This document shows, in pieces, positions 6,471 through 35,207 of a stretch of 49,261 nucleotides of DNA (position 1 is its first letter; the number at the start of each line of letters is the position of its first letter). The notes under the pieces are model-generated. The model saw only the letters and a program-made list of their open reading frames with translations. It did not search any database and had not been told where the DNA came from. Made by a program: the position numbers and the translations under genes. This DNA comes from a virus, in IMG/VR virus record IMGVR_UViG_3300031884_000036, positions 1-49,261 of that record; one strand, 5' to 3'.

Positions 6471-6628
6471 AACTAACTGACCTAACTCTTGAAGAACGAA
6501 AGACTTGGAATAACAAGTATAAACGATTCCAACGTGCTTGGCTAAAGAAAAATAATCCTGAAGGCAAACCGTTTAAGACGCAACCAATCTTTGAGGCTTT
6601 CTGTAAAAAACATAACATTGAAGTATGA
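6467..6628 (+). CDS. Small basic protein (53 aa)
   Basis: Starts at an ATG overlapping the nuclease stop (ATGA) and ends overlapping the next start (ATGA at 6625). The product, beginning MKLTDLTLEERKTWNNKYKR, is helical and Lys/Arg/Trp-rich, so a nucleic-acid or protein-binding role is plausible. It is supported mainly by the precise double overlap. No family recognised. Confidence 0.7.
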   Translation: MKLTDLTLEERKTWNNKYKRFQRAWLKKNNPEGKPFKTQPIFEAFCKKHNIEV

Positions 6629-9200: not shown

Positions 9201-10799
9201 ATGTTACGGAACAAACCTCGTCTTAAATACTGTGGTATCACGGTAGTTCTAGGCAACCCTAGTCGCTTCGACAAAGCAGCTTTGTTGACAGCCACAGGTG
9301 GTTGCTTGTTCAATGACTTGTGTTTGCGTCCAGAGTTCAACCAGATGCAATGCGATATTCGTTTAGCAGACGACCCTAGTCCTCTGTTGCCGGATACGCA
9401 TTGCATCCTTTTGCTTGGTGAATCAGCTTGTCATAAATGGATACCGGCTTCACGTGGTAACTCAATAGGTGAAATCCGTGGGTCAGTATATTTCTATAAC
9501 GGTATACCAGCAATTCCCACTTTCTTCCCACAAGACGCCTGCGACTTTAAGAACCTGGAAGTCAAACTAAACCCGCTGAATCCAGAGTATTCTCCTGATG
9601 CCGAGGACGAAGTTGAAGATACTGACGATTATGAATCCATCAAAAGACACGGTAAAACTTCTCGAAGGAATTTCGCTTTCTGGATTAAACAGGACTGTGC
9701 TAAAGTCAAAACTATTATCACCAACGGTGGTAAAGTTCCTGCCTCTGACATTCAGAAACCATCCTATCGGATATACCCAAATTCATCTGAGGTTATTGAT
9801 ATACTTTCCAGCACTAAGAATCAAACACTCTTCTTTGATATAGAAACTGATTATGAAGAACAAAATTTACAATGCTTCGCGTTCAGCTTTGACGGCGTTA
9901 ATATTTATTCTGTTCCTATTCTTGATTATTTGTATCATCCTGCCTACAGTTCTTATCATCTCATTTTGCGAGCATTGGCGGTGGCTATTAGGGACAATTT
10001 GCTTATCGCTCATAACGGCGCTTGTTTTGATTTCTTTGTCCTCGCGCATAAGTATCATATCGCAGTTAATAAAACATATGATACGATGATAGCACAGCAT
10101 CGTATTTACCCTGATGTTGAGAAATCTTTAGGTCATTGCGTCTCTCTTTGGACATGGGAGAACTTCCATAAAGATGAAGACTCTAAGGGTTATATGTCCC
10201 GCGAGCAGATGGAAGCTCGTTTGCGTTACTGTGGTAAAGATGTTTATACTTTAGCCCTAGTCTATAAAGCACAGCAAACCTATGCTAAAAAAGTTGTTGG
10301 TTTGTCTGACTCAATCTCATGTGCTATGGCTGCTATTAGGCCTTACCTTATTACTTCTCTCCAAGGTATCCAAGTCGCCAAGGAAAAAGTGATTGAGGCC
10401 GCGCGAGAAAATGACAGACTTATGATGCAATACGACCGCATTATTAAGTTACTTATTGGTGAGAAATCGATGGCGGCCATTAAGTCATCTATCAAAGGTA
10501 AAGCTGGAATGTTTGCTGGTTCTAACAGTCAATGCATTACTTACTTCCATGAGATGCTTGGTTATCCGGTTGTTGCTCGTTCTTCTAAAACAGAGAAGCC
10601 TTCTCTTGGCAAGAAAGCAATGTATAAACTGGCACTCAAATTTCCAGAGAATCCAGTCATTCAATTTGTTTTGGCTTACAGAACTATTGCGAAAGAATTT
10701 GGCACGTATAAGTTTATACCGTGGCGCAATGATGATGGAACTTTGGGCACTCATTCGTTACTTGAACAACCACCAGAACAACAGGAGTTTGTGGTATGA
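9201..10799 (+). CDS. Family-A DNA polymerase, N-terminal half: UDG-like domain, 3'-5' exonuclease, thumb
   Basis: The 532-residue product begins with a uracil-DNA-glycosylase-like domain (~1-165; LLLGESACHKWIP, IPAIPTFFPQ), as in several phage family-A polymerases. A DEDDy 3'-5' exonuclease follows: Exo I FFDIET (Asp213, Glu215), Exo II AHNGACFD (Asp277), Exo III Tyr343-xxx-Asp347. After it come the helical thumb and the segment DGTLGTHS, where the polymerase domain should run on into a TGRLSS-like motif. Instead the chain diverges (LLEQPPEQQEFVV) and stops. The missing continuation is found at 12041 (YKLTGTKTFRLSS). The enzyme must therefore be assembled from two polypeptides, or this half acts alone as a proofreading nuclease. 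Its stop overlaps the next ATG (ATGA at 10796). Confidence 0.92.
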   Translation: MLRNKPRLKYCGITVVLGNPSRFDKAALLTATGGCLFNDLCLRPEFNQMQCDIRLADDPSPLLPDTHCILLLGESACHKWIPASRGNSIGEIRGSVYFYNGIPAIPTFFPQDACDFKNLEVKLNPLNPEYSPDAEDEVEDTDDYESIKRHGKTSRRNFAFWIKQDCAKVKTIITNGGKVPASDIQKPSYRIYPNSSEVIDILSSTKNQTLFFDIETDYEEQNLQCFAFSFDGVNIYSVPILDYLYHPAYSSYHLILRALAVAIRDNLLIAHNGACFDFFVLAHKYHIAVNKTYDTMIAQHRIYPDVEKSLGHCVSLWTWENFHKDEDSKGYMSREQMEARLRYCGKDVYTLALVYKAQQTYAKKVVGLSDSISCAMAAIRPYLITSLQGIQVAKEKVIEAARENDRLMMQYDRIIKLLIGEKSMAAIKSSIKGKAGMFAGSNSQCITYFHEMLGYPVVARSSKTEKPSLGKKAMYKLALKFPENPVIQFVLAYRTIAKEFGTYKFIPWRNDDGTLGTHSLLEQPPEQQEFVV

Positions 10800-11005
10800 C
10801 CATACATTTAACTGAAAATGTATCTAAAGAAATATCTCGTTTTATATGTGAGATTAACAGAAACCCAACTATCATCTATCTTGGAGATAGATATGTTAGA
10901 AGTCTTGAAGCAGAATTTGGATTTTTTAAATCATGCACTGTGCAGTTTATGGGCTTGATTGTCGTAAAAGTTTTTGACGAAAATTATTGCAGAGCTGGAT
11001 TATGA
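10796..11005 (+). CDS. Small unknown protein (69 aa), first gene of the cassette splitting the polymerase
   Basis: Starts with an ATG overlapping the stop of the polymerase N-terminal half. The product (MTIHLTENVSKEISRFICEIN...) has an N-terminal helix followed by beta strands (TIIYLGDRY, VQFMGLIVVKVF). It ends in an ATGA overlap with the next gene. No family recognised. Its codon use is AT-rich, like the rest of the cassette and unlike the flanking polymerase halves. Confidence 0.7.
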   Translation: MTIHLTENVSKEISRFICEINRNPTIIYLGDRYVRSLEAEFGFFKSCTVQFMGLIVVKVFDENYCRAGL

Positions 11006-11394
11006 TAGAACTGCCTTACAGAATTACAAATGGTTGTTGTGAATACTACAAAGATAAGCTGATTTTTCTTTACGGTTATGACGTGATGGGCAAATCAATG
11101 GATGGTCAAGCAATGATTAAAGGTCATGAGAATACATTCCCGATTACGACAATGTATAAATTTTGTAATAGTGGTGCTCGTTATTTTACTGATGCTGACC
11201 ATGCTTGCTTTGAGCATATTGATTCCTGCTTTGCAGCTATACCTAACGATGGCAGGTTAATTATACCGCTGCGCAAGATGGGAGAAGGCTGTTCTCGTCT
11301 GAAAGAACTGGCACCGAGAGTTCACATTTATCTTTATGAAAGACTTAAAGCAATTGGATACCCAGAAATCATTTGGCAATACGATTGGCAATAA
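11002..11394 (+). CDS. Conserved phage hypothetical protein (130 aa)
   Basis: The product begins MIELPYRITNGCCEYYKDKL. The pattern GxxxxGQAMIKGHENTFPI...YFTDAD...IPNDGRLIIPLRKMGEGCSRL resembles a phage family with a GGQAVIRDEPNAxGIPTK...AYFTDADxE...VVIPxxGLGTGLA layout. I know that family as a short conserved protein of unknown function and do not assert an accession number. The glycine-rich IIPLRKMGEG segment could be a ligand loop. The ATG at 11002 overlaps the upstream stop (ATGA). It is part of the cassette with thyX. Confidence 0.72.
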   Translation: MIELPYRITNGCCEYYKDKLIFLYGYDVMGKSMDGQAMIKGHENTFPITTMYKFCNSGARYFTDADHACFEHIDSCFAAIPNDGRLIIPLRKMGEGCSRLKELAPRVHIYLYERLKAIGYPEIIWQYDWQ

Positions 11395-11408
11395 ACAATA
11401 ATAAAACT

Positions 11409-12044
11409 ATGAAAATAATTGAACCATCACATGAAATACTAACCCCTGTTGAAGGAGAAGCTGGACGCAATATGCTACGGTTAATTGAACGAGCAGCTAG
11501 AACTTGCTATAAATCAGAGGATGCTATTACTTGTGATAGCCATTCTGCTTTTGTTACAAAGATAGCTACAGTATTTAAGCATGTATCAGTCATAGAACAT
11601 TGTTCCGTTACTGTTAAGTTTATTTGTGACCGTGGTGTTACACATGAAATTGTGAGACACAGGCTTGCTGCTTATTCACAAGAATCAACACGTTATTGTA
11701 ATTATGCCAAGGATAAATTTGGCAATGAAATTACAGTTATTAGACCGTTCTTTTTTACTGATGAACAGCGTTATGGATTTTGGCAAAGAGCTATGAAAGA
11801 ATGTGAAGATTTATATTTATCGTTACTCGGTGCAGGCGCTTCGGCACAAGAAGCTCGTTCAGTGTTGCCGAATAGTCTTAAAACTGAAATTGTTATGACA
11901 GCTAATCTTCGTGAGTGGCAACATATCTTTAGACTTCGCTGTTCGTCAAAAGCACATCCGCAAATGCAGCAGTTAATGAAACCTTTGTTTGCCGAGTTTC
12001 AGCAACATCTTCCTGAATTATTTGCTGATATTGTTCCGGTATGA
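11409..12044 (+). CDS. thyX: Flavin-dependent thymidylate synthase ThyX
   Basis: The 211-residue product contains the ThyX signature: Arg83-His84-Arg85, then YSQESTRY with Ser93 and Arg95. ThyX methylates dUMP to dTMP using methylenetetrahydrofolate, FAD and NADPH, giving dTMP for phage DNA synthesis. The first serine of the usual RHRxxS motif is alanine (Ala88), a substitution I also associate with active relatives. The ATG at 11409 was chosen because it starts the conserved region (MKIIEPSHEILTPVEG); an in-frame extension upstream overlaps the preceding gene. The stop overlaps the ATG of the polymerase C-terminal half (ATGA at 12041), so thyX sits physically inside the split polymerase gene. 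Confidence 0.95.
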   Translation: MKIIEPSHEILTPVEGEAGRNMLRLIERAARTCYKSEDAITCDSHSAFVTKIATVFKHVSVIEHCSVTVKFICDRGVTHEIVRHRLAAYSQESTRYCNYAKDKFGNEITVIRPFFFTDEQRYGFWQRAMKECEDLYLSLLGAGASAQEARSVLPNSLKTEIVMTANLREWQHIFRLRCSSKAHPQMQQLMKPLFAEFQQHLPELFADIVPV

Positions 12045-14008
12045 GAAATTCAACTTGTTATAAACTTACCGGAACTAAGACCTTCAGATTAAGCAGTTCT
12101 AAAATACTCGGTAAATACGGAGGCAACCTTCAGAATATAGAAAAAAGCATGAGGGAAATATATGTCCCCGACGAAGGTAAGATTTTCGTGCAGACAGACC
12201 AAGCTGGTGCCGAGGCACTAATTGTTTCTTATCTGACACGTGCCGGTAACTATCGTGCTTTGTTTAACAATGGTATTAAACCACACACGTATATTTGTGT
12301 GCATCTGTTTGAGGACGTGTGGCCGCGAAAGATGCAAGAGCATAATTTCATACAATCGCGTGATGAATTAGACATTAAGAAAATCATAGCAACTCCGATT
12401 CCAGAGCTGAAAAAGAACCCACTTTGGAAGTCTTTAGACGGCTGCATTAAGTCCAGTGACGGCTGGCCTCTTACAGAACGCTATTACTATCTAGGTAAGC
12501 AAACAGAGCATTGTGTCGATAAAGAAACGATGCTACTAACACAATGTGGCTGGGTTACTGCCGAACAATATGATGGGAAAGAATCAATTGCTATCTACGA
12601 TAATGGAATAATTAAATTTGAGCGACCATTAAAATGGAATCAGTTTGACTATGAAGGCGACATGATTCAATTTAATGGCGATGAAGTTAATCAATTAGTA
12701 ACGCCTAATCATAAAGTTTTGTATGAAAGTAATGGTAAACAACATTATAATCAAGCAATAAATATCTTTAGAAATCAAAGATTAAACATCCCAACAAGCG
12801 GAGCGTATGTTGGTGGATTGACGAATTTAGAAAATTGGAGAGTTAAATTATTGGTGGCCATTCAAGCAGATGGACATTGGTGTAAGTCAGAGGAAGCTCA
12901 TTCTTATGAAATGTTGCCAAAGGTTATTTTTAGATTAAAAAGACAAAGAAAAATAAAGCGATTATTAGAAATTTTACATGAAGGAAATTGTCGTTACAAT
13001 TTAGCTAGTCACGCTCATGGTGTTACCTGCATAACTGTATTTGATTTAGAAGATACAGTAAAATATTTTGGACTGGTAAAACAATTTGATAGTTGGATTT
13101 TTACTTTATCAAAATCAAACCTTGAATTATTGGTTTCTGAGCTTCATCATTGGGATGGAACAAAAGAAAGCTCTACTTTGCACAAACGTGAAGCTTATTA
13201 TTCCGCAATTAACAGAAATGCACATTATGTAAAATTGGCTTGTCACCTTGTTGGAAAACAGGGAACATTGAATTATAATTCAACTTCACAAATTTATTGT
13301 GTTGGCATAAATAACAGAAAAAATTCAATAGCTAATTTTAATACAAGAATAAAAGGATATTTTGGAAAAGTTTATTGTCCAACAGTTTCATCTGGCTATT
13401 TTATTATCAATAGAAAAGGTAAAATCTCTGTTACAGGTAATAGCAGTAACTACGATATTCAGCCGCCGACATTCCGAATGAATATTCTGGAAAAGTCTGG
13501 TGGTAAAATTGTAATCTCGAAAACCGATTCAGAACGGTTTATCTCTACCAAGCATAGACTTTATCCAGAGATAAAAGAAGATTTCCATATGTCGGTGCAA
13601 GCGCAGGTTAAACGTAACCGTGTGCTTTACAATTTGCATGGGCATCCTTATCAAATAACACAACCCTATTTTAAGGATTCTGACTGGAAGGAATACTACT
13701 CTTGGATTCCGCAAAGCACGGTTGGCGAGATAACAAATATTGCTTATGCACGTTTGCAAGAATTTATAGAACAAGAGAATTTGGCATGGGACTTGCTTGC
13801 TAATACACATGACTCGTATCTTTGTCAGTGTCCTATAACTGATGCGTTAGTCTGTGGTGCTAAGATGAAAGAGTTTATTGAGCAAGAGTTAGTTTCACCT
13901 TTTGATGGCACACACTTTAGGATGCGTTCTGAAACCTGTGCTGGTTTCAACTGGCGTCCGTTTCACCCTGAAAAGAATCCGATTGGATTAAAAGAGATTA
14001 ACGTATGA
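12041..14008 (+). CDS. Family-A DNA polymerase, C-terminal half (palm/fingers), interrupted by an intein
   Basis: The 655-residue precursor consists of extein 1-157, intein 158-467 and extein 468-655. Extein 1 has TGTKTFRLSS and motif A DQAGAEALI (Asp53, catalytic metal). The O-helix begins at Arg147/Lys153 (RYYYLGKQTEH) and resumes after the intein (SSNYDIQPPTF, Tyr471). QSTVGEITNIA and motif C HDS (His590-Asp591) follow, so both catalytic aspartates are present. The mature extein would be about 345 residues. It lacks exonuclease and thumb, which are in 9201-10799. The start is an ATGA overlap with thyX, and the first six residues (MRNSTC) look like a newly made N-terminus before the ancestral sequence resumes at YKLTGT. 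The polymerase should need both protein splicing and association of two chains. Confidence 0.93.
   Translation: MRNSTCYKLTGTKTFRLSSSKILGKYGGNLQNIEKSMREIYVPDEGKIFVQTDQAGAEALIVSYLTRAGNYRALFNNGIKPHTYICVHLFEDVWPRKMQEHNFIQSRDELDIKKIIATPIPELKKNPLWKSLDGCIKSSDGWPLTERYYYLGKQTEHCVDKETMLLTQCGWVTAEQYDGKESIAIYDNGIIKFERPLKWNQFDYEGDMIQFNGDEVNQLVTPNHKVLYESNGKQHYNQAINIFRNQRLNIPTSGAYVGGLTNLENWRVKLLVAIQADGHWCKSEEAHSYEMLPKVIFRLKRQRKIKRLLEILHEGNCRYNLASHAHGVTCITVFDLEDTVKYFGLVKQFDSWIFTLSKSNLELLVSELHHWDGTKESSTLHKREAYYSAINRNAHYVKLACHLVGKQGTLNYNSTSQIYCVGINNRKNSIANFNTRIKGYFGKVYCPTVSSGYFIINRKGKISVTGNSSNYDIQPPTFRMNILEKSGGKIVISKTDSERFISTKHRLYPEIKEDFHMSVQAQVKRNRVLYNLHGHPYQITQPYFKDSDWKEYYSWIPQSTVGEITNIAYARLQEFIEQENLAWDLLANTHDSYLCQCPITDALVCGAKMKEFIEQELVSPFDGTHFRMRSETCAGFNWRPFHPEKNPIGLKEINV
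12512..13441 (+). other. Intein (310 aa) with LAGLIDADG-type endonuclease remnant, in DNA polymerase
   Basis: In-frame insertion. It starts with Cys158 (block A, CVDKETMLLTQCGWVTAEQ), has block B TPNHKV and a block F/G end (GKISVTGN), and is followed by Ser468 as the +1 nucleophile. The terminal Asn467 is present, but the residue before it is Gly instead of His. A LAGLIDADG-like motif 1 (LLVAIQADG) is clear. A second (LVSELHHWDG) is divergent, so endonuclease activity is uncertain. The insertion point is the catalytic O-helix, a typical highly conserved intein site. The DNA is visibly more AT-rich (many AAT, ATT, TTA codons) than the exteins, which supports horizontal acquisition. Confidence 0.93.
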
Positions 14009-15549: not shown

Positions 15550-18500
15550 TTATCTCATCGAAGGAATCATGGATTCCTTCATCTTGTTAATAGTATTCTG
15601 TCTCATGTAGTCAGCCACTCTTTGTTGTGCTGCTTCTGGCCCGATTGTCTTCACCAGATACTGATAGTATTTTGCATACTGTAAGGGCATATTTTCTGGC
15701 GAAGGCATTGTTTGATAACTGTTCTGCTTCAACGTGTTAAGTTGGTTCTTCAATATCTCTGGATTTCCTGCTGCTCTTTCTTGTGCTAGAGCAACCAAAT
15801 CTGGAACTTCTTTTGCAGCTTCTCCAATATCAGTAGTCCTCTTGAAATTCTTCTGCTCCATATTCAAATACGGATTGTTAGAAGTCTCTGTTTGTTGGTC
15901 ATAGGGCATACCTTCTGCCATCTTGAAACGACGCAAGTCTTGTTCCGAGGTATTGAGCTTATACTTGTAGTTCTCAGTTTGTGTGCTAACACCTTTATCA
16001 CTCATCCAGTTGTCAGCAATACGAGCAGTTTGCACGTTCTCTTTCGCCAAGTCAATCATGGCTTGAGGAAAGATTTTCAAGAAGTTATCCGCAGTTGGGT
16101 TTTGCTGAAACGCACTAACAGCTTCGGTAATAGTTTTACCAATATTCGTGACAGCTTCATCTAACGGGAACGTGGCAGACTGTGGAATATTCTTGTAGGC
16201 AGTATCAAATGCCATCTTACCAAGAGAAGAACCAATTCCCATCATGCCAGTGAATGACGCCATCTGCATGAAGTTGTAGGCCAGCAAAGGAATATTACCT
16301 TCTAGTCCTTTGCTACTCTTTGCAATCTCTGTTAGAGATGGTATGTTGGATTTCTTGTCCATCATCTGCTGGCGCAGTTGCTGAATAACATAACCACCAA
16401 CAGCAGCACCAAGCGTGGACATAAGTAACGGTTGAATGTTACCTTGCGTTGCAGGTTCCCAAACGTGTTTCATCCACTGGTTAGTCTGTGACACTGACCA
16501 ACTTTGCAGCGACAAGAATGGCTTAATGATTGATTCTCTGGTCATGAATTCTGGCAGAGTCCGGTAATCATGTGCACCGTGAATCAATCCACCAAGAGAG
16601 CTAGCCATGCTCGCGATTTCTTCCTTACTATAAACCTTATCTTTTGACCAAGAAGGGTCAAGTTGCATTATCATCTTCTGTGACCACTTGTCTCCTTGCT
16701 TTGCACCTTCAATACGCAATGGCACAATTTGTTCTCCGAGTGCCTGAGCAAAAGTCTTCGATACTCTGTCAGTCCACTCTCTTCCATTTACCTTCCCAAT
16801 AAGACTGGAGATAGCTTGCATCCTGTTAATAAAGGTGCTCTGTGAATCAGTAATATCTGCCAAGCTATTTAAGTCTCTTCTTTTGTAGCCATTCTGATAA
16901 ATCTTCTCGGCTGCTTCACCCCAATTAGCTAGTGCTTTAGGATAAGCTGTTGCCAGTTCGGTAGCTTTGAGATACTGAAACGGATTAAAGATTGTTGACC
17001 AGCCAATATGAATGTTAGTCATTGGCCCTAACAAAGCAGAAGTGAATACTTTATTGAAGGCGCGAATCACGCCAGCATCATGGTCGAAAGGCTCGCCTTT
17101 GATTTGCTCAATAATGTTCTTAAATTCGTGGTAAACACCTTGTGAATTGTCAGGCTGTATTGCTTTGTTGACTTCTGGATTCTTCTCGACAAGATTGAAC
17201 CAAGCTCTGTCAGTTGCAACCTTGTTAAAATACTTTGAGATAGTCTTGCCGTAATCCTTAACACGCAGTTCAGCAGGTAAACCAGCACCTTCCGTTAAAC
17301 GGTTTGCACCGAAACGAGTAGCGTTAGGTTTACTGGAATCACCAGCAGCTTTAAGTGATTCTAGTTTGGCAATAGCGTTCGGGTTATTGACACCACCCCA
17401 ATGTTCCAGAAGCATATTCTGGTAGCGTTTGTAGTCACCGGTATGGTTCAAGATGGCGTCGAGAACGTCAGGACGAAGAACGCTAGGATAGTAGAAAGGA
17501 TTAACCTGTGCATCGCGCATGAAAGGTTTGCCTTTTGCGTCGAAGTCACGAACTTGCTGACCATCTTTAATCTGGTCAAGTTGCTTCTGCTTTAGAGCTT
17601 CTCTCGTAGCTTCATAAAGAGCTTTCTTTGCAGGACTATTCATCATGCTAGCATAACTCTTCTGGTCAAGGTCTTCTTTCATCAACCAGTTATGAACATA
17701 GTTCCGGTCAGCCACTGGCATTTTGTCAGCAAGTGTCAACAGTTTATTGCTATATTTGCCATAGAACTCGTCTCTGATTGTTGGAAATTTTTGGAATACA
17801 TCCGCGACAGGTTTACCTTCCGGCCCAGACAAATGACGAGCTTTGTCAATGGCTGGCATTAGGTGCAGGAAATTGAACTTTTGTTCGGGAGTGATGCCTT
17901 CTTCTTTATCTTGATGCTTATTAAAGAGTGTAAAACTGTCACCACTGTCAAGTTTATGCCCTACTGCTTCTAACGGATACATACGACCAGTGACAGAGGT
18001 TTTAGGCGTGCCGTCAGCGTTCCTGAAGATGAGGTTGGAGCGTTCTACTTGGTCAGTCACTTCTGGCATCTCTCCACCAGTATCAGGTCTTTGTCTCTCA
18101 CGTATTACTTTAGTTTCATACGCATTCTTATGCTCCCCAAGACTCACCTTCTCACCCTTACTCCCTGTGAGTTCTTCGGCTATCTTTGGGAGGATGGTGT
18201 CGTAGTTGAGACGCATGCCGGGTTCTTGATTTATTGGTGAGTGAGTCTTTTCTACCCACTTCATCCCTTGACTTAGCAGATAGTGTCCATATTGTGTATT
18301 TGGCCCTTCTCGGCTTTCGTGTATCTTACCGTTTTTATCTTGGTATCTGTTGATTTCATACCCCTGTGCATCATGCCTCTCCGTCATCATCGCCGTCTCT
18401 GCATCACTCACCATGATATGCGTCGCACCTTCTTTGCGTGCTTGTTCGATAGCGGCTTTGAGGATTAGGCGGTTGTAGTCACGGAGGAGGGAGTGGTTTT

Positions 18501-21500
18501 CTACTGCATCTTTGCCACCTAGCGTTTGAAGCACACCTACTCTATTATTGTCTTTAGCGTCTTGTTCCAGCTTTCTACGCTCCTGCCCCCACCTACTCTG
18601 TGCCTCGGCTATCACAGCTATCTTCTCGCCCTTCGGCCCAGTCTTATACTGTATCATCGCCCAGCCGAGAGTGTTGGGTAGGTTTTCGTGGAGGTCGTCG
18701 GGAGGCCACATTAGTCCCTTATCTTGTGTCTCTTTCCATCCACCTAGTTTATGTGCAGACCTCACATCATTAGCACTTAGTTCACCCTTTAGCGGTATCA
18801 CCACATCCACCCTCTGCACATTCCTCCCACTCTTCGTCGTCGTCCACTCAGGCATTGGTTGAGTAGTGTCGAAAGCGGAGACAGTGGAGTAGTAGGAGGT
18901 TGCTTTTGGGCCACCACTTGTGTCCTCCATGCCTACTTGCTTAGCCAGTTCTAGGTAACGTTCAGCCTTAGCCTTCCATTCAGGTGTTTGGCGTAGCGTC
19001 CACAAGTTTCCACCTGAACGTCTAGCACCATTAGAGATGTAATCATGTAGTAGTTGGTTACTGTTTGGACGAGTTATAGCTTCGTCTATTTTAGTGCGCA
19101 CAGATACTGGCTCATTATCATACCACTCATGCGTCATCCTATCATACTCCCTCTTCGCCTCACTCACCTTCCCTTCCATGCCATAAGTATGCACCTCCAC
19201 CTTCGGTGTGTGTTCCTGCACCCACTGAGACGCATCTTGCTGGCTAACATTTCTTCCTCCGCCAAACTCTTTTTCAATACCAGCTTTTTGTAGAATATCC
19301 CACTCTACTGGCGAAAGATTATTTTTCAAGACACCAAGTAACTGGTTGCCGTTGAAAGCTTTACCACTATTCAACTGACCAGACTTTGGATTCTTGATTA
19401 GTTGTTGTGCTTTTGTGGTAAAAATTTCTTTTGACTGAATACCTTCTTCTTTGTCTTGATGCCGCAAGTCTTCTTTCGGAATATTCTTCTCAATCCAGCT
19501 CTTACTATCAAGCTGTGTTCCTTCCGGCATTGCATCCAACTTGGCGATATGTTCTGAGAACCTGTCGTCACCAAATCGTTCCTGCATACCTTCAAGCATG
19601 CCAGCAAGTTCACCGTTGGTTGTGTCAAACTTCTCGTTAATCTTGCTGGGAATTTCTTCAATTGGATTCTCTTTATGAGTAGTCTTTTGTTCTAGCTCAG
19701 CAGTTTCATTTCCTTCTGCGTGTTGTGCACCGGCAAGAACATCATGCTGTGTTCTGCCTTCACCCGCAGATTGGTCAAGAGAAGAAGTCTTCTTAAGAGT
19801 TTTCTGTTCTTCAAGCCATTCCTTGAAGAATTCTTGCGCCCTTCTTCCAGCCGATTGAGCAACCATGTCAGTTTTTGCAACAGCGTCAGGATGTTCAATA
19901 TCAGCACCACGACGTTCAATACCACTTACGGCGTTAGAAGTTGGCACACGGCCAGCCTTCATATCAAGACCATCTTTAATCAAAGATTGCTGGACTTTTC
20001 CAACAATATCTTTGATAGTTTCTTCTGGCATAAACTTGCCAGACTTACCGGTTTCTTTGTTGGTAACATGGCTAGGTAAGCCAGCCCTTAACAACATACG
20101 AGAGAGCTTAGCTCTTACAACATTGTTAATAATCGGAACGTCAGAATCCTGTAAGTTAGCAGGAATACGGCGCGGTGGTGCATTACGAGGCGGAACATAG
20201 CCAGTCTCGTCAACAGGATAACTAAGAGGCGCACGACCAGCTTCACGTGCAGGAGCGCCATTACGAATGGTTTCCATTTCTTCACGCTGTTTAGTTCTTA
20301 GTTCACCCTGCTGTTGACGACGTTGTTCGTAAGTTAGTTTGCCACGGGTTACTTGGCCAGTTTTTAGTTCTTTGGTTGGCTTAGTAATACCTTCTTCACC
20401 TTCTTGATTCCTCTGCACCGCTTCATGCATCTTCTTGAACCAGCCCTTCTGCTCGTCTTTCTTTTGCGCTTCCTGTGTCACTCTACGATATTCTTCTTCC
20501 TCTTTACCAGTTCTGTTCAGCGGAACTTGATTGCCTTCTTTGTCAACTTCCTGATTCTTACTAACAGCACCAGTTCCAGCACCTTTCATTCCACCTTTCG
20601 GCAGTTCAGAAATACCATTAACTAGCTTGTAAGTATTGGCACGATATAGGTCGTCAACACTCGGCTCAGCACCATACTTAGCTTTCCAGAGAGATTTGGT
20701 GTCATTCCACCAACCTTTAAGTGGTGTTTCGTTGTGAGCGTTAATTAGTCTGCTAATAGCCTTGTAACCAAACTGCGTCGCCAAGTATTCTTCATGGTCA
20801 AATGGTTGTTTACCTGCTTTAACACGTTCAGCATTATAGGCATCAAACTCTGGTTTGGTTGCCAACAATAATTGCTGTTTAGCTCTGTCAGGCATCACGT
20901 CAAAAATGTGATGGAAGTTCTCATGAGCTTGCGTTCCAGCGTCAGCGTTCTTGGTAAAAATATCAGTGGTCTGTGTGCCAACATGAGCAGTTCCTTTGAA
21001 GGGAGCCTCACCTTCAATAGCAGTATCTTTGATACCATGAAGTGCACTAATCTCTTTAGCCCACGTGTTGAATAATTCAGGAGTAACTTTACTAACGTCA
21101 AGACCCATCGAATGAGCTTGTTCTTGAAGCATTTTGCCAGCTTCCGTTAGGATAGGTTGTCTGCCAGTCTCTTGAAACTTGTCCTGCTCATTCTTTGGTA
21201 TTCCAGCTAACTCTTGTTCTTTCTGTCTCCCAGCCAAGTCAGCAGCGTTAGCAACTTCGTCCGTCGCAACAGCCTTGTTGTCTTTCGCAAAAGGAGAGAA
21301 TGGAGTCTTGCCTTTAATCGTCTCTGGACGGGTAATGTTTGACCCGATACCAGACTGTTGAAGTTCTTGACCAAGTTGTCTTGTCTGGAGGTCTTTTTCA
21401 TTCTGTAATTGCTCCTGAATTGTCTGGACAGCTTCTTCACCTTTAGCCCTAATGAAATCAGCCGCGCGTTGAGGATTGGCTGGAAGTGCAGTAACTCTCC

Positions 21501-22599
21501 TGCGAAGTTCTTCTTCAGCATTGCGTTGAGCAACCAGTTCTGGGTCATTGTTAACTCCGCCTTCTGCTTCCATTGCAGCCATCTGGCTTTCAGGAGTTTT
21601 GTCCATCCTATAAGTTGCCATTGCGTTGGCAGCTTTACCTTCCTTTGTGGTATCTTCTGTTCTAACATCTTGTTTAATAGGAATACCACCAATGGTGGTT
21701 TGAACATCTGGTAAAGTTGCAGGAGCAGGATTAACAGCGTCAGCGGCAGGAATACCAATTTGTTCTTGCTGTTGAGCAAGTAACATCTGACGAACTTTCT
21801 CTGGGTCAGAAAGAATACGCTGATGGTCAGAAAAACCAAGGTTACGACCAATAGCGTTAGGCTTGTTAAACAAGGCACCTTCGGCAGCGTTTTTCAGTAA
21901 GTCAGCAGGATTATAGTCACCTTCTGCCAGCGGTTGCGCAGCACCAATAACTGTGCCAGTTCCAACGTTTAGAAGATTGGCTAGTTCTTCAGGTGACTTT
22001 TCAAGACCAGTAACCACTTTACCGAGAGTCCCTCCCGCCCTAACAAGGTTAGAAGGAGAGGCATTAAATCCGCCTAAAGGCATTGCAGCAACTTCGCCTA
22101 ACTCTGCTGCAACAGGATTTGCGGCTTGTGACTCTTGTAACTTCTTCTTGTATTCTTCTGGTTCAAGTGCAGTTTGAGCTGCACGAACACCCTTGGAAGC
22201 AGCATAAGCACTGCCAAGACCTACTAGAATATTAAGAGGAATACCAACAGGCGGATATGCGAGTGCAGGTTTAGCAAGCACGTTAAGTAGTGCCATACCA
22301 CCAGCAGCACCAACACCACCAGCAGCCATTGAAGGAGCAGCATCAAGTGCAGAACGTCCAGCTGTTATGATAGGACTATCTTGTCCCTGCAAAGTTGGTG
22401 CAACTTGAACAGGAGAATCCTCAAAATCTTTATCAGTAACAATAGGTTTGTTTCCTAGAAGACTTTCTTGAGTTGGTTGCTGAATAGCAAGAGCAGACTT
22501 TGGAAGTATTTGTGTCCCATCTGGAGACATTTCATACTTCAAAGGGTCTAGTCCGTGTGCAGCAATAATCTGTGCTTGAACCTCTGGTGAGTCTGGCAT
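15550..22599 (-). CDS. Giant polyvalent virion-type protein (2349 aa) with HExxH metallopeptidase motif
   Basis: One frame of 2349 residues. The N-terminus has a hydrophobic Ala/Gly-rich stretch (~residues 90-150). An HExxH zinc-protease motif HENFH is at 559-563, then long charged linkers. A compact central domain (~1250-1420) follows, with VAVIAEAQSRWGQ-like and THIMVSDAETA-like segments, and a C-terminal domain from about 1850 (LLGPMTNIHIGWSTIFNP). The last resembles large polyvalent-protein C-terminal domains in other podovirus-like phages. Such giant proteins are usually packaged and injected with DNA, and act in ejection, host-defence blocking or peptidoglycan/protein cleavage. Three linkers carry the same octapeptide theme (HQDKEEGI twice, NQEGEEGI once). 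DNA of about 17.95-19.25 kb differs in composition (C-rich on the plus strand), suggesting a recently inserted module. It is the last gene of the structural operon. Confidence 0.85.
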   Translation of the reverse strand: MPDSPEVQAQIIAAHGLDPLKYEMSPDGTQILPKSALAIQQPTQESLLGNKPIVTDKDFEDSPVQVAPTLQGQDSPIITAGRSALDAAPSMAAGGVGAAGGMALLNVLAKPALAYPPVGIPLNILVGLGSAYAASKGVRAAQTALEPEEYKKKLQESQAANPVAAELGEVAAMPLGGFNASPSNLVRAGGTLGKVVTGLEKSPEELANLLNVGTGTVIGAAQPLAEGDYNPADLLKNAAEGALFNKPNAIGRNLGFSDHQRILSDPEKVRQMLLAQQQEQIGIPAADAVNPAPATLPDVQTTIGGIPIKQDVRTEDTTKEGKAANAMATYRMDKTPESQMAAMEAEGGVNNDPELVAQRNAEEELRRRVTALPANPQRAADFIRAKGEEAVQTIQEQLQNEKDLQTRQLGQELQQSGIGSNITRPETIKGKTPFSPFAKDNKAVATDEVANAADLAGRQKEQELAGIPKNEQDKFQETGRQPILTEAGKMLQEQAHSMGLDVSKVTPELFNTWAKEISALHGIKDTAIEGEAPFKGTAHVGTQTTDIFTKNADAGTQAHENFHHIFDVMPDRAKQQLLLATKPEFDAYNAERVKAGKQPFDHEEYLATQFGYKAISRLINAHNETPLKGWWNDTKSLWKAKYGAEPSVDDLYRANTYKLVNGISELPKGGMKGAGTGAVSKNQEVDKEGNQVPLNRTGKEEEEYRRVTQEAQKKDEQKGWFKKMHEAVQRNQEGEEGITKPTKELKTGQVTRGKLTYEQRRQQQGELRTKQREEMETIRNGAPAREAGRAPLSYPVDETGYVPPRNAPPRRIPANLQDSDVPIINNVVRAKLSRMLLRAGLPSHVTNKETGKSGKFMPEETIKDIVGKVQQSLIKDGLDMKAGRVPTSNAVSGIERRGADIEHPDAVAKTDMVAQSAGRRAQEFFKEWLEEQKTLKKTSSLDQSAGEGRTQHDVLAGAQHAEGNETAELEQKTTHKENPIEEIPSKINEKFDTTNGELAGMLEGMQERFGDDRFSEHIAKLDAMPEGTQLDSKSWIEKNIPKEDLRHQDKEEGIQSKEIFTTKAQQLIKNPKSGQLNSGKAFNGNQLLGVLKNNLSPVEWDILQKAGIEKEFGGGRNVSQQDASQWVQEHTPKVEVHTYGMEGKVSEAKREYDRMTHEWYDNEPVSVRTKIDEAITRPNSNQLLHDYISNGARRSGGNLWTLRQTPEWKAKAERYLELAKQVGMEDTSGGPKATSYYSTVSAFDTTQPMPEWTTTKSGRNVQRVDVVIPLKGELSANDVRSAHKLGGWKETQDKGLMWPPDDLHENLPNTLGWAMIQYKTGPKGEKIAVIAEAQSRWGQERRKLEQDAKDNNRVGVLQTLGGKDAVENHSLLRDYNRLILKAAIEQARKEGATHIMVSDAETAMMTERHDAQGYEINRYQDKNGKIHESREGPNTQYGHYLLSQGMKWVEKTHSPINQEPGMRLNYDTILPKIAEELTGSKGEKVSLGEHKNAYETKVIRERQRPDTGGEMPEVTDQVERSNLIFRNADGTPKTSVTGRMYPLEAVGHKLDSGDSFTLFNKHQDKEEGITPEQKFNFLHLMPAIDKARHLSGPEGKPVADVFQKFPTIRDEFYGKYSNKLLTLADKMPVADRNYVHNWLMKEDLDQKSYASMMNSPAKKALYEATREALKQKQLDQIKDGQQVRDFDAKGKPFMRDAQVNPFYYPSVLRPDVLDAILNHTGDYKRYQNMLLEHWGGVNNPNAIAKLESLKAAGDSSKPNATRFGANRLTEGAGLPAELRVKDYGKTISKYFNKVATDRAWFNLVEKNPEVNKAIQPDNSQGVYHEFKNIIEQIKGEPFDHDAGVIRAFNKVFTSALLGPMTNIHIGWSTIFNPFQYLKATELATAYPKALANWGEAAEKIYQNGYKRRDLNSLADITDSQSTFINRMQAISSLIGKVNGREWTDRVSKTFAQALGEQIVPLRIEGAKQGDKWSQKMIMQLDPSWSKDKVYSKEEIASMASSLGGLIHGAHDYRTLPEFMTRESIIKPFLSLQSWSVSQTNQWMKHVWEPATQGNIQPLLMSTLGAAVGGYVIQQLRQQMMDKKSNIPSLTEIAKSSKGLEGNIPLLAYNFMQMASFTGMMGIGSSLGKMAFDTAYKNIPQSATFPLDEAVTNIGKTITEAVSAFQQNPTADNFLKIFPQAMIDLAKENVQTARIADNWMSDKGVSTQTENYKYKLNTSEQDLRRFKMAEGMPYDQQTETSNNPYLNMEQKNFKRTTDIGEAAKEVPDLVALAQERAAGNPEILKNQLNTLKQNSYQTMPSPENMPLQYAKYYQYLVKTIGPEAAQQRVADYMRQNTINKMKESMIPSMR
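15560..15580. terminator. Tight hairpin at the convergence of the two main operons
   Basis: GAAGGAATC pairs perfectly with GATTCCTTC around an ATG loop, inside the 3' end of the giant minus-strand gene and just beyond the plus-strand operon stop. There is no T tract on either side, so intrinsic termination is uncertain. A bidirectional pause/attenuation element is possible. Confidence 0.35.
17893..17916 (-). repeat. HQDKEEGI linker repeat, copy 1
   Basis: Encodes HQDKEEGI in the giant protein. The same octapeptide recurs at 19438-19461, and a variant (NQEGEEGI) at 20386-20409. Copies 1 and 2 bracket the compositionally different ~1.5-kb module. Confidence 0.75.
19438..19461 (-). repeat. HQDKEEGI linker repeat, copy 2
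   Basis: Encodes HQDKEEGI in the giant protein, about 510 residues before copy 1 in the protein order. The two DNA copies differ at a few synonymous positions, so the repeat is not a fresh duplication. Confidence 0.75.
20386..20409 (-). repeat. NQEGEEGI linker repeat, variant copy 3
   Basis: Encodes NQEGEEGI, a variant of the HQDKEEGI linker, upstream in the same giant protein. Together the three copies could mark module boundaries or protease-processing sites. Confidence 0.55.
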
Positions 22600-22604
22600 A
22601 TAGA

Positions 22605-23837
22605 TTAGTAAGCAGGAGAAGAATCAAGTGTATTGACGATAGGCTGAGCTTGACGAACTGGGGTCAAAAGTTTATTAATTAACTGCGCATATGGATTAAC
22701 ACCGCCATTTATAGCAGCAATACCAGTTGGAACTGGATTAACTGTGGAAGGTATAACCTGCTGTTGGTTATCCGGCAAAGCGTCAGCATCCTGAATATTG
22801 TTATCCGGCATTGGATTAACTTGTGCCGCAGCAGCCGCTTTTGCTCTAATAGCATTAGCAGCATCTTGGTCAACAGGAATAGCAGCAGTTATACCAGCTC
22901 CTTGTCCAGCACCAGAAGTGGTGCGCTCAACATCACGCGCAGGAATAATCTGTCCATTCTGCATACCTTGACCAGTGCTAATTTTTTCAGCAGTAGTTGT
23001 CGGAAAACCAGCCTGTCCAGAACCTTTAAGAGTAATACCAGAGAATGGGTCATACTTAAAACCAGTTCCACCTTGAGGAAGTTCCATTTGATTCTGCTCA
23101 AGATATGGAGCAGCAGCACCATAGGTTTGACCAAGAGTAGCAGCTTTAGCAAATTGCGGATTAGAGAGAATATCTCCCTGTAAACCACCAGCTTTCTGTG
23201 CATTAGTTTCACCAATAGACTCAGAACCACTAGTTCCAGTAGCAGTAAGTTGTGAAGGTGTTAGCTGAACACCGTCTGGATTAGCCATTGTTCTGCCAGC
23301 AGCAGAAGCTGTATTTGCAGCTTGTGTTGCAGCCAACTGTTTGATACTATCGTGTGCAGCAGCAGAATGTGTTGCTTGGTCAGCAGCAGCTTTTGCAGCA
23401 ATGATATCTTTCTCAGAACCAGTTGAAGCAGCAAGACGAGCCAAGTAGTCAGCTTGAGCTTTATCCTGCTGTGCTTTCTGGAAAGACATTTGCAAAGCAG
23501 TATCATTGGCTTTACCACCATTCAACAGTGCATCAACCATCGGATGTGCAACAGTAGCGTTACCATTAGCATCAAGTGTTATTTTATTACTGCCTAAGCC
23601 ACGTCCAAGAAGACGCAAAGGAGAACCAATAACGCCGAGTAAACCACTACCTTCAGAAGTAGCTGCTGGCATGGGATTAACTTGTGCATTACCAACTTGT
23701 GAAGGCGTGACTCCTGCTGGACTTTGTGCCACAGAAGGTTGCGTAAAAGTTTGTGGCACAGCCAGTGAAGCAGCAGGTTGTTCTTGTCCTGCCTGAAAAG
23801 CAAGAGGACGTTGAAAGAAACGAGGTTGTGAAGCCAT
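22605..23837 (-). CDS. Low-complexity virion-type protein (410 aa)
   Basis: The product starts MASQPRFFQRPLAFQAGQEQP and is rich in Ala, Gln, Gly and Asn with little predicted compact structure. A VNPMP-type pentapeptide recurs (near residues 52, 331 and, as NPVP, 365). A helical Ala/Lys segment (QKAQQDKAQADYLARLAASTG) lies near 125-145. It sits between the giant protein (5-base gap) and another low-complexity protein. In podovirus-like genomes this position often holds internal core or ejection proteins, which is the best guess. Start after AATAATTTATT, no Shine-Dalgarno. Confidence 0.75.
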   Translation of the reverse strand: MASQPRFFQRPLAFQAGQEQPAASLAVPQTFTQPSVAQSPAGVTPSQVGNAQVNPMPAATSEGSGLLGVIGSPLRLLGRGLGSNKITLDANGNATVAHPMVDALLNGGKANDTALQMSFQKAQQDKAQADYLARLAASTGSEKDIIAAKAAADQATHSAAAHDSIKQLAATQAANTASAAGRTMANPDGVQLTPSQLTATGTSGSESIGETNAQKAGGLQGDILSNPQFAKAATLGQTYGAAAPYLEQNQMELPQGGTGFKYDPFSGITLKGSGQAGFPTTTAEKISTGQGMQNGQIIPARDVERTTSGAGQGAGITAAIPVDQDAANAIRAKAAAAAQVNPMPDNNIQDADALPDNQQQVIPSTVNPVPTGIAAINGGVNPYAQLINKLLTPVRQAQPIVNTLDSSPAY

Positions 23838-34631: not shown

Positions 34632-35207
34632 TTACAGACTTACATGACGGTTATCAACTAACCATCTTAGAACACGTGCTGTTGCTCTTACATCCGATAA
34701 TGCATCGTGTGCACCTTTGAAATCTTCCTTAAAACAAAAGTTATATGCCTCTTGAAGTTTAGGCCACTTAAAGGTTTGTCTCTGCGAAGGAAGTTTACAA
34801 ATTGGTGTCATTAGTTGCATTGTGCACAAAAACTTCTTTTGTGTCCAATCAATCTGAAAACTGCTGCCTTGATTCTCAATATCAATTAACTGCGAATCAA
34901 AGTTAATGTTGTGCGCTACAACTAAGTCGGCTCGCAACAAATGAGAGTTAAATAGGTGCATAACATTGTTAATGCTTTCACCGTATTTATTACAATCATC
35001 TGTTGAGATACCATGTGCTGCTTGTGCGCCAGAAGCTATTGACTTACCTTCTGGCAAACACACAAGTGATTTGAAACAAGAAACTTCTTTAAAGTTTTTA
35101 TCCAGCAACAAGAAGGCTAGTTGAACTATCCTTGCCTGTGCTGGATTTTCTTTCGGAAGATTCTTTGATGGAAAACCAGTTGTTTCGGTATCAAAGATAA
35201 GAAACAT
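34632..35207 (-). CDS. DnaQ-like 3'-5' exonuclease (DEDDh), within the structural operon
   Basis: The 191-residue product has Exo I FDTETTG (Asp6, Glu8), Exo II VVAHNINFD and Exo III HDALSDVRAT (His-x4-Asp), so it is a complete DEDDh exonuclease. Usual roles are proofreading or degradation of DNA or small RNA. Its location between scaffold and major capsid genes is unusual; it is 6 bases downstream of the scaffold gene. It could trim DNA at packaging, act as a virion-delivered nuclease or attack host nucleic acids late in infection. The polymerase has its own DEDDy exonuclease, so this one is probably not for proofreading. Confidence 0.88.
   Translation of the reverse strand: MFLIFDTETTGFPSKNLPKENPAQARIVQLAFLLLDKNFKEVSCFKSLVCLPEGKSIASGAQAAHGISTDDCNKYGESINNVMHLFNSHLLRADLVVAHNINFDSQLIDIENQGSSFQIDWTQKKFLCTMQLMTPICKLPSQRQTFKWPKLQEAYNFCFKEDFKGAHDALSDVRATARVLRWLVDNRHVSL

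Follow-up and report, generated by a model that had tools for sequence, protein, structure and literature searches.

We describe here a giant phage protein in which short repeated peptides that differ from phage to phage stand at the joints between modules, and in which whole cassettes are exchanged between these peptides. The protein class is already known, but this feature is undescribed; we found no mention of joint peptides of this kind in the searched literature, most subscription journals lying outside that search. At close to an even chance, we view the protein as a polyvalent-type, ejected modular chain in which a phage-specific factor reads the tags, most likely by proteolytic cutting at the joints.

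The window, by which we mean the whole stretch of DNA analysed, is a complete IMG/VR virus record of 49 kb. Replication genes occupy its plus-strand half, and terminase and tail-fibre-like genes its minus-strand half. The minus-strand operon with the terminase and tail-fibre genes ends with the giant gene, which faces a primase/helicase gene; the order of giant gene and then convergent primase gene is also found in most relatives. The giant frame picked out in an earlier sequence-only reading is a single ATG-to-stop ORF, and its parts are as follows.

15550..22599, minus strand: giant polyvalent-type phage protein, 2349 aa (ORF list and translation; relatives L002-L006, L017-L037, L062 and L069)
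21250..22599, minus strand: N-terminal region, aa ~1-450, with a Gly/Ala-rich hydrophobic stretch at about aa 91-135 (hydropathy peak at aa 91)
20911..20925, minus strand: HENFH motif, aa 559-563, kept in the sister protein
20500..21162, minus strand: zincin-like metallopeptidase (MPTase) domain, aa ~480-700, putative (HENFH and a conserved downstream Glu; AlphaFold2 helix order, low confidence)
20530..20559, minus strand: possible relic of a fourth tag, SKNQE-VDKEG (alignment gap; the sister has HQNKDEGF there)
20386..20409, minus strand: joint tag 1, NQEGEEGI, aa 731-738 (sequence position)
19462..20382, minus strand: helix-rich region between tags 1 and 2, aa ~740-1046 (loose alignment to L030/L032; helices judged from sequence)
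19438..19461, minus strand: joint tag 2, HQDKEEGI, aa 1047-1054 (within an AlphaFold2 segment of pLDDT<50, aa 1043-1056)
17935..19428, minus strand: module X in the swappable slot, aa ~1058-1555, possibly GNAT-like (replaced by ART-PolyVal in L002)
17893..17916, minus strand: joint tag 3, HQDKEEGI, aa 1562-1569 (within an AlphaFold2 segment of pLDDT<50, aa 1562-1580)
15553..17886, minus strand: C-terminal core, aa ~1572-2349, common to relatives (77% to P0002, 26% to P0005; no Pfam match)

The chain consists of an N-terminal hydrophobic part with the HExxH domain, a tag, a middle region, a tag, the slot, a tag and the C-terminal core. Searches with the window protein against Pfam, PHROG, NCBIfam and PDB sequences gave no meaningful match, tblastn against 50,697 phage genomes gave no match, and scans with the C-terminal core and with the metallopeptidase domain returned already-known loci only. 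The N-terminus aligns with that of a sister protein (L002/L003), which resembles the N-terminus of P0005, and its hydrophobic stretch is a possible membrane anchor. Adjoining the giant gene (22605-23837, minus strand) is a gene for a 410-aa Ala/Gln-rich protein that is 33% identical, over a partial match, to its sister counterpart, compared with 79-90% for three genes nearby; it may be a fast-evolving partner of the giant protein.

Elsewhere in the same genome, a family A DNA polymerase is apparently split (9201-14008, plus strand) into ORFs at 9201-10799 and 12041-14008, with a ThyX gene (11373-12044) and small ORFs between them. The former ends just before the TGTKTFRLSSS..GGNLQNI region with which the latter begins. 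ORF 12041-14008 (plus strand) also contains an apparent intein, from about CVDKETMLLTQCGW to ..GKISVTGN before SSNYDIQ, and PHROG profiles for PhoH-like proteins and thymidylate synthase match within this intein-like stretch. The structural half of the genome includes an ORF (34632-35207, minus strand; phrog_192) that resembles a DNA polymerase exonuclease subunit.

The exchange of cassettes is seen directly in the sister protein, which has about 2020 aa and is about 65-77% identical to the window protein. Homology extends only over window aa 4-1071 (65%) and 1513-2349 (77%), with none between. In place of the 515 aa from linker 2 to linker 3, the sister has a 180-aa insert, and the homology breaks at the linkers. 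Pfam identifies the insert as an ADP-ribosyltransferase of the ART-PolyVal family (PF18760; E 4e-8, which passes the curated cut-off). Tags flank it as well, HQDKEEGI on one side and YQDKDEGL on the other, and the sister protein has four tag copies in all. In P0005 (L006/L025), module X and the ART domain are both present, each between tags. The slot between tags 2 and 3 is an exchangeable effector slot, occupied by module X here and by an ADP-ribosyltransferase in the sister.

The three (H/N)Q(D/E)xEEGI peptides on which the sequence-only reading had built are all present and far above chance. The looser pattern [HNYKRQ]Q[DEN]x[ED]EG[ILVF] occurs three times in the window protein compared with a mean of 0.0015 in 20,000 shuffles. 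The top-scoring pair of 10-mers within the protein reaches 45, compared with at most 40 in 60 shuffles. None of the other window ORFs contains the linker motif, and a scan of IMG/VR with the linker DNA pattern returned only the sister phage and an unrelated short protein family.

Some 20 other giant proteins, which measure 1.8-2.7 thousand aa where complete, share module X (500 aa), a conserved, enzyme-like domain for which there is no Pfam or PHROG model. AlphaFold2 applied to aa 1000-1640 with 20 sequences gave a module X core of pLDDT 85-95 and six low-confidence segments. Linker 2 falls in one of these (aa 1043-1056) and linker 3 in another (aa 1562-1580); both linkers are probably disordered, on either side of the folded module. 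Foldseek matched module X to predicted phage proteins (E values as low as 2e-12), several of which are annotated as bearing large polyvalent protein-associated domains. Matches to the PDB were weak only, all with E > 0.001 and a probability of about 0.25 or less, and GNAT acyltransferases were frequent among them. The acetyl-CoA loop (Q/R)xxGx(G/A) is absent from the invariant columns of 20 module X homologues. A GNAT-like fold for module X is a lead from structure prediction, not a result. Some relatives have further domains (GNAT, DUF2188) inside the module X region, and a module X scan of genome contigs returned a single short MAG contig. In the L062 giant ORF, an insert at aa ~928-1032 interrupts module X and reads like another ADP-ribosyltransferase (VYHKG...DSYAVLD; no Pfam match), and thus modules may also nest in each other. 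In L021, module X is split over the ORFs at 6543 and 8871, with the break in mid-domain.

The giant protein fits the polyvalent proteins, multidomain phage proteins thought to be injected, because the sister slot carries ART-PolyVal above the curated cut-off and because the structural matches of module X include predicted phage proteins whose annotation names large polyvalent protein-associated domains. Like the described members of the class (PMC5512222), the window protein is a very large multidomain phage protein with a metallopeptidase motif, and its domains are unrelated, with X and ART swapped in one slot. In contrast to those members, no Pfam domain of the catalogued set was detected in the window protein; ART-PolyVal is found in the sister and P0005, and the structural neighbours are annotated as polyvalent. 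Judged from protein class and gene position only, the protein most likely travels in the virion and leaves it together with the DNA.

The HENFH motif claimed in the sequence-only reading stands at aa 559-563. In the alignment, HENFH with a downstream Glu (E603/E604) is shared with L030, L032 and L062 and matched by L020 and L025, the L025 version of the motif being HExxxH. AlphaFold2 modelled the region at a mean pLDDT of 44.7, with the HENFH helix followed by a helix bearing an EE pair, a zincin-compatible order; Foldseek with this low-confidence model gave no zincin match. The window protein has the HExxH and downstream Glu ligand typical of MPTase-PolyVal domains, and aa ~480-700 appear to form an HExxH metallopeptidase-like domain, a putative peptidase.

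The sister phage retains the linkers, so the lack of conservation that would have spoken against the sequence-only reading is not seen there; more distant relatives carry other peptides at these joints. In an internal-repeat scan of the relatives, the best repeat pair in several of them flanks module X, and the peptide varies by phage. The tag is R[YF]S[QE]ESALGPS in L025 (e.g. RFSEESALGPS; further copies at aa 476, 866 and 1781), FSGxGxLPED in L017 (third copy weaker), KKFQAD in L020, RYSLPAQR/RFSTPSSR in L032 (three copies at matching joints, the first scoring weaker), GAIxPEGSER in L024 and GSIFP/GAIFP in L069. In L062 the peptides are K[FY]S[AE]AADEP and RFSEAADEP, at aa 414 (following the metallopeptidase), aa 732 (preceding X) and aa 1377 (following X), joints that correspond to the three tagged ones of the window protein. 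The tags are not fully private, GAIFP being common to L024 and L069 and a loose [KR]-aromatic-[SQ] theme occurring in several phages. Five other phage genomes encode giant proteins with an ART domain; a search of these proteins for joint tags returned nothing beyond domain duplications and paired HExxH motifs.

Pairing was assessed by comparing the region before X with the region after X in all combinations among 22 proteins, with no choice of peptides by eye; this version supersedes an earlier anchor-based test of 12 proteins only. Same-protein pairs had a mean score of 27.5 and foreign pairs 22.7, and none of 20,000 re-pairings reached the observed mean. With 8-residue words, 1 of 20,000 re-pairings did so, and with the two strongest proteins (the window and L025) removed, 4 of 5000. 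The signal is carried by about a third of the 22 proteins, and approximately half have no detectable tag. A joint that is merely inherited is expected to be closer to the same joint elsewhere than to the neighbouring joint in its own protein. Joints that are alike within a protein more than between phages therefore suggest one factor per phage that reads all tags.

Codon usage within the tags provides additional evidence. Window tags 2 and 3 are identical at 21 of 24 nt and differ in codon at three of eight shared residues, while L002 tags 3 and 4 are identical at 15 of 24 nt and differ in codon at all six shared residues. Synonymous changes affect 5 of 9 shared residues in the L017 tags and 10 of 17 in those of L024. 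These codon differences at shared residues suggest that the tag peptide is under selection rather than recently copied as DNA. Together with the swap between two linkers and the predicted disorder at the linkers, this peptide-level conservation bears out the modular, polyprotein-like nature first proposed from the sequence. It also bears on two readings that grant the peptide no role. The linkers could act as repeats at the DNA level, favoring recombination and the exchange of modules, with a functionless peptide, and the near-identity of window tags 2 and 3, which flank the swapped slot, would fit; we consider this very improbable given that in L002, L017 and L024 synonymous divergence has occurred with the peptide kept. 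That the tags are neutral duplication remnants or simple hydrophilic spacers without a role in recognition would agree with their charged, predictedly disordered sequence, with the degenerate fourth tag in the window and with the many relatives that have no tag. We give this the lowest probability of all, as the peptide is kept while codons diverge and copies stand at matching joints in several unrelated sequence types.

In the mechanism that we favor, one phage-specific factor would recognise every tag of its own giant protein. Recognition would most likely be proteolytic, either by the in-cis metallopeptidase or by another phage protease, and cutting of the chain at the joints would free the modules to work independently in the host. 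We find proteolysis the most economical proposal: the tags are probably exposed, they separate units with unrelated activities, and a metallopeptidase motif is present in the same chain; cleavage at the tags is our best mechanistic guess. Metallopeptidase processing was proposed for polyvalent proteins by Iyer et al. in 2017, who cited phage P1 DdrB as processed (PMC5512222), with no mention of repeated joint peptides and no cut sites named. A metallopeptidase motif N-terminal to X occurs in five of six strongly tagged proteins and in 1 of 16 others (Fisher p=0.0013; a post hoc comparison confounded by phylogeny). Since five of the six have the motif before module X, with L017 as the exception, the HENFH domain is a plausible candidate for the cutter in a self-processing chain. 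More tentatively, each lineage might have its own protease-site code, in which metallopeptidase and tags have co-evolved, cutting is performed only by the phage's own peptidase and effector cassettes must carry or acquire the local tag.

A serious rival, though an unlikely one in our estimate, is that the tags are uncut docking or handling peptides, bound at the joints by a partner specific to the phage (an inner body of the capsid, an ejection channel or a chaperone) for packing and for threading through the tail. The strong tags of L017, which occur without any HExxH, would suit such a role, as would the repeated and predictedly disordered nature of the tags. The virion RNA polymerase of phage N4 has a metallopeptidase motif and is packaged unprocessed (PMC5512222), with flexible linkers between folded units (PMC12633501). 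This protein, gp50, resembles the window protein as a giant ejected protein with predicted N-terminal membrane helices, an HExxH domain and flexible linkers, ejection of the window protein being deduced; it differs in its RNA polymerase domain and unprocessed packaging, whereas the window protein has no RNA polymerase family match and has several joint tags. No docking partner is known, and the tendency of strong tags to accompany an upstream metallopeptidase motif counts against docking. Alternatively, the tags could be processing sites for a separate phage or host protease, with HENFH acting otherwise, e.g. on host proteins. This would accommodate L017, L018 and L026, which have tags or weak tags and no HExxH, and some metallopeptidase domains may be effectors (Iyer et al., PMC5512222). 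We regard it as rather improbable: no protease is annotated in the window phage, and none of the other ORFs that were examined has the tag, whereas a general virion protease motif would be expected more widely. For SPN3US-type prohead proteases, a shared motif is similarly cut in several head proteins, sometimes several times per protein (PMC10052503), but there a separate protease acts on many substrates, mostly by removing N-terminal propeptides, in contrast to the window tag, which is found only in the giant protein and at internal module joints. T4-type prohead protease sites were also considered and dropped; such sites follow a three-residue rule that the tag does not fit.

Ever since its description in 2017, the polyvalent class has posed the question of how its proteins are converted into functional pieces. 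Repeated phage-specific joint peptides offer exact candidate sites, mark module borders without recourse to homology and make the idea of processing testable. Should the tags prove to be sites of cutting, the peptidases could be developed into a panel of sequence-specific tools; if they do not, the tags would point to an unknown handling step in the ejection of giant proteins.
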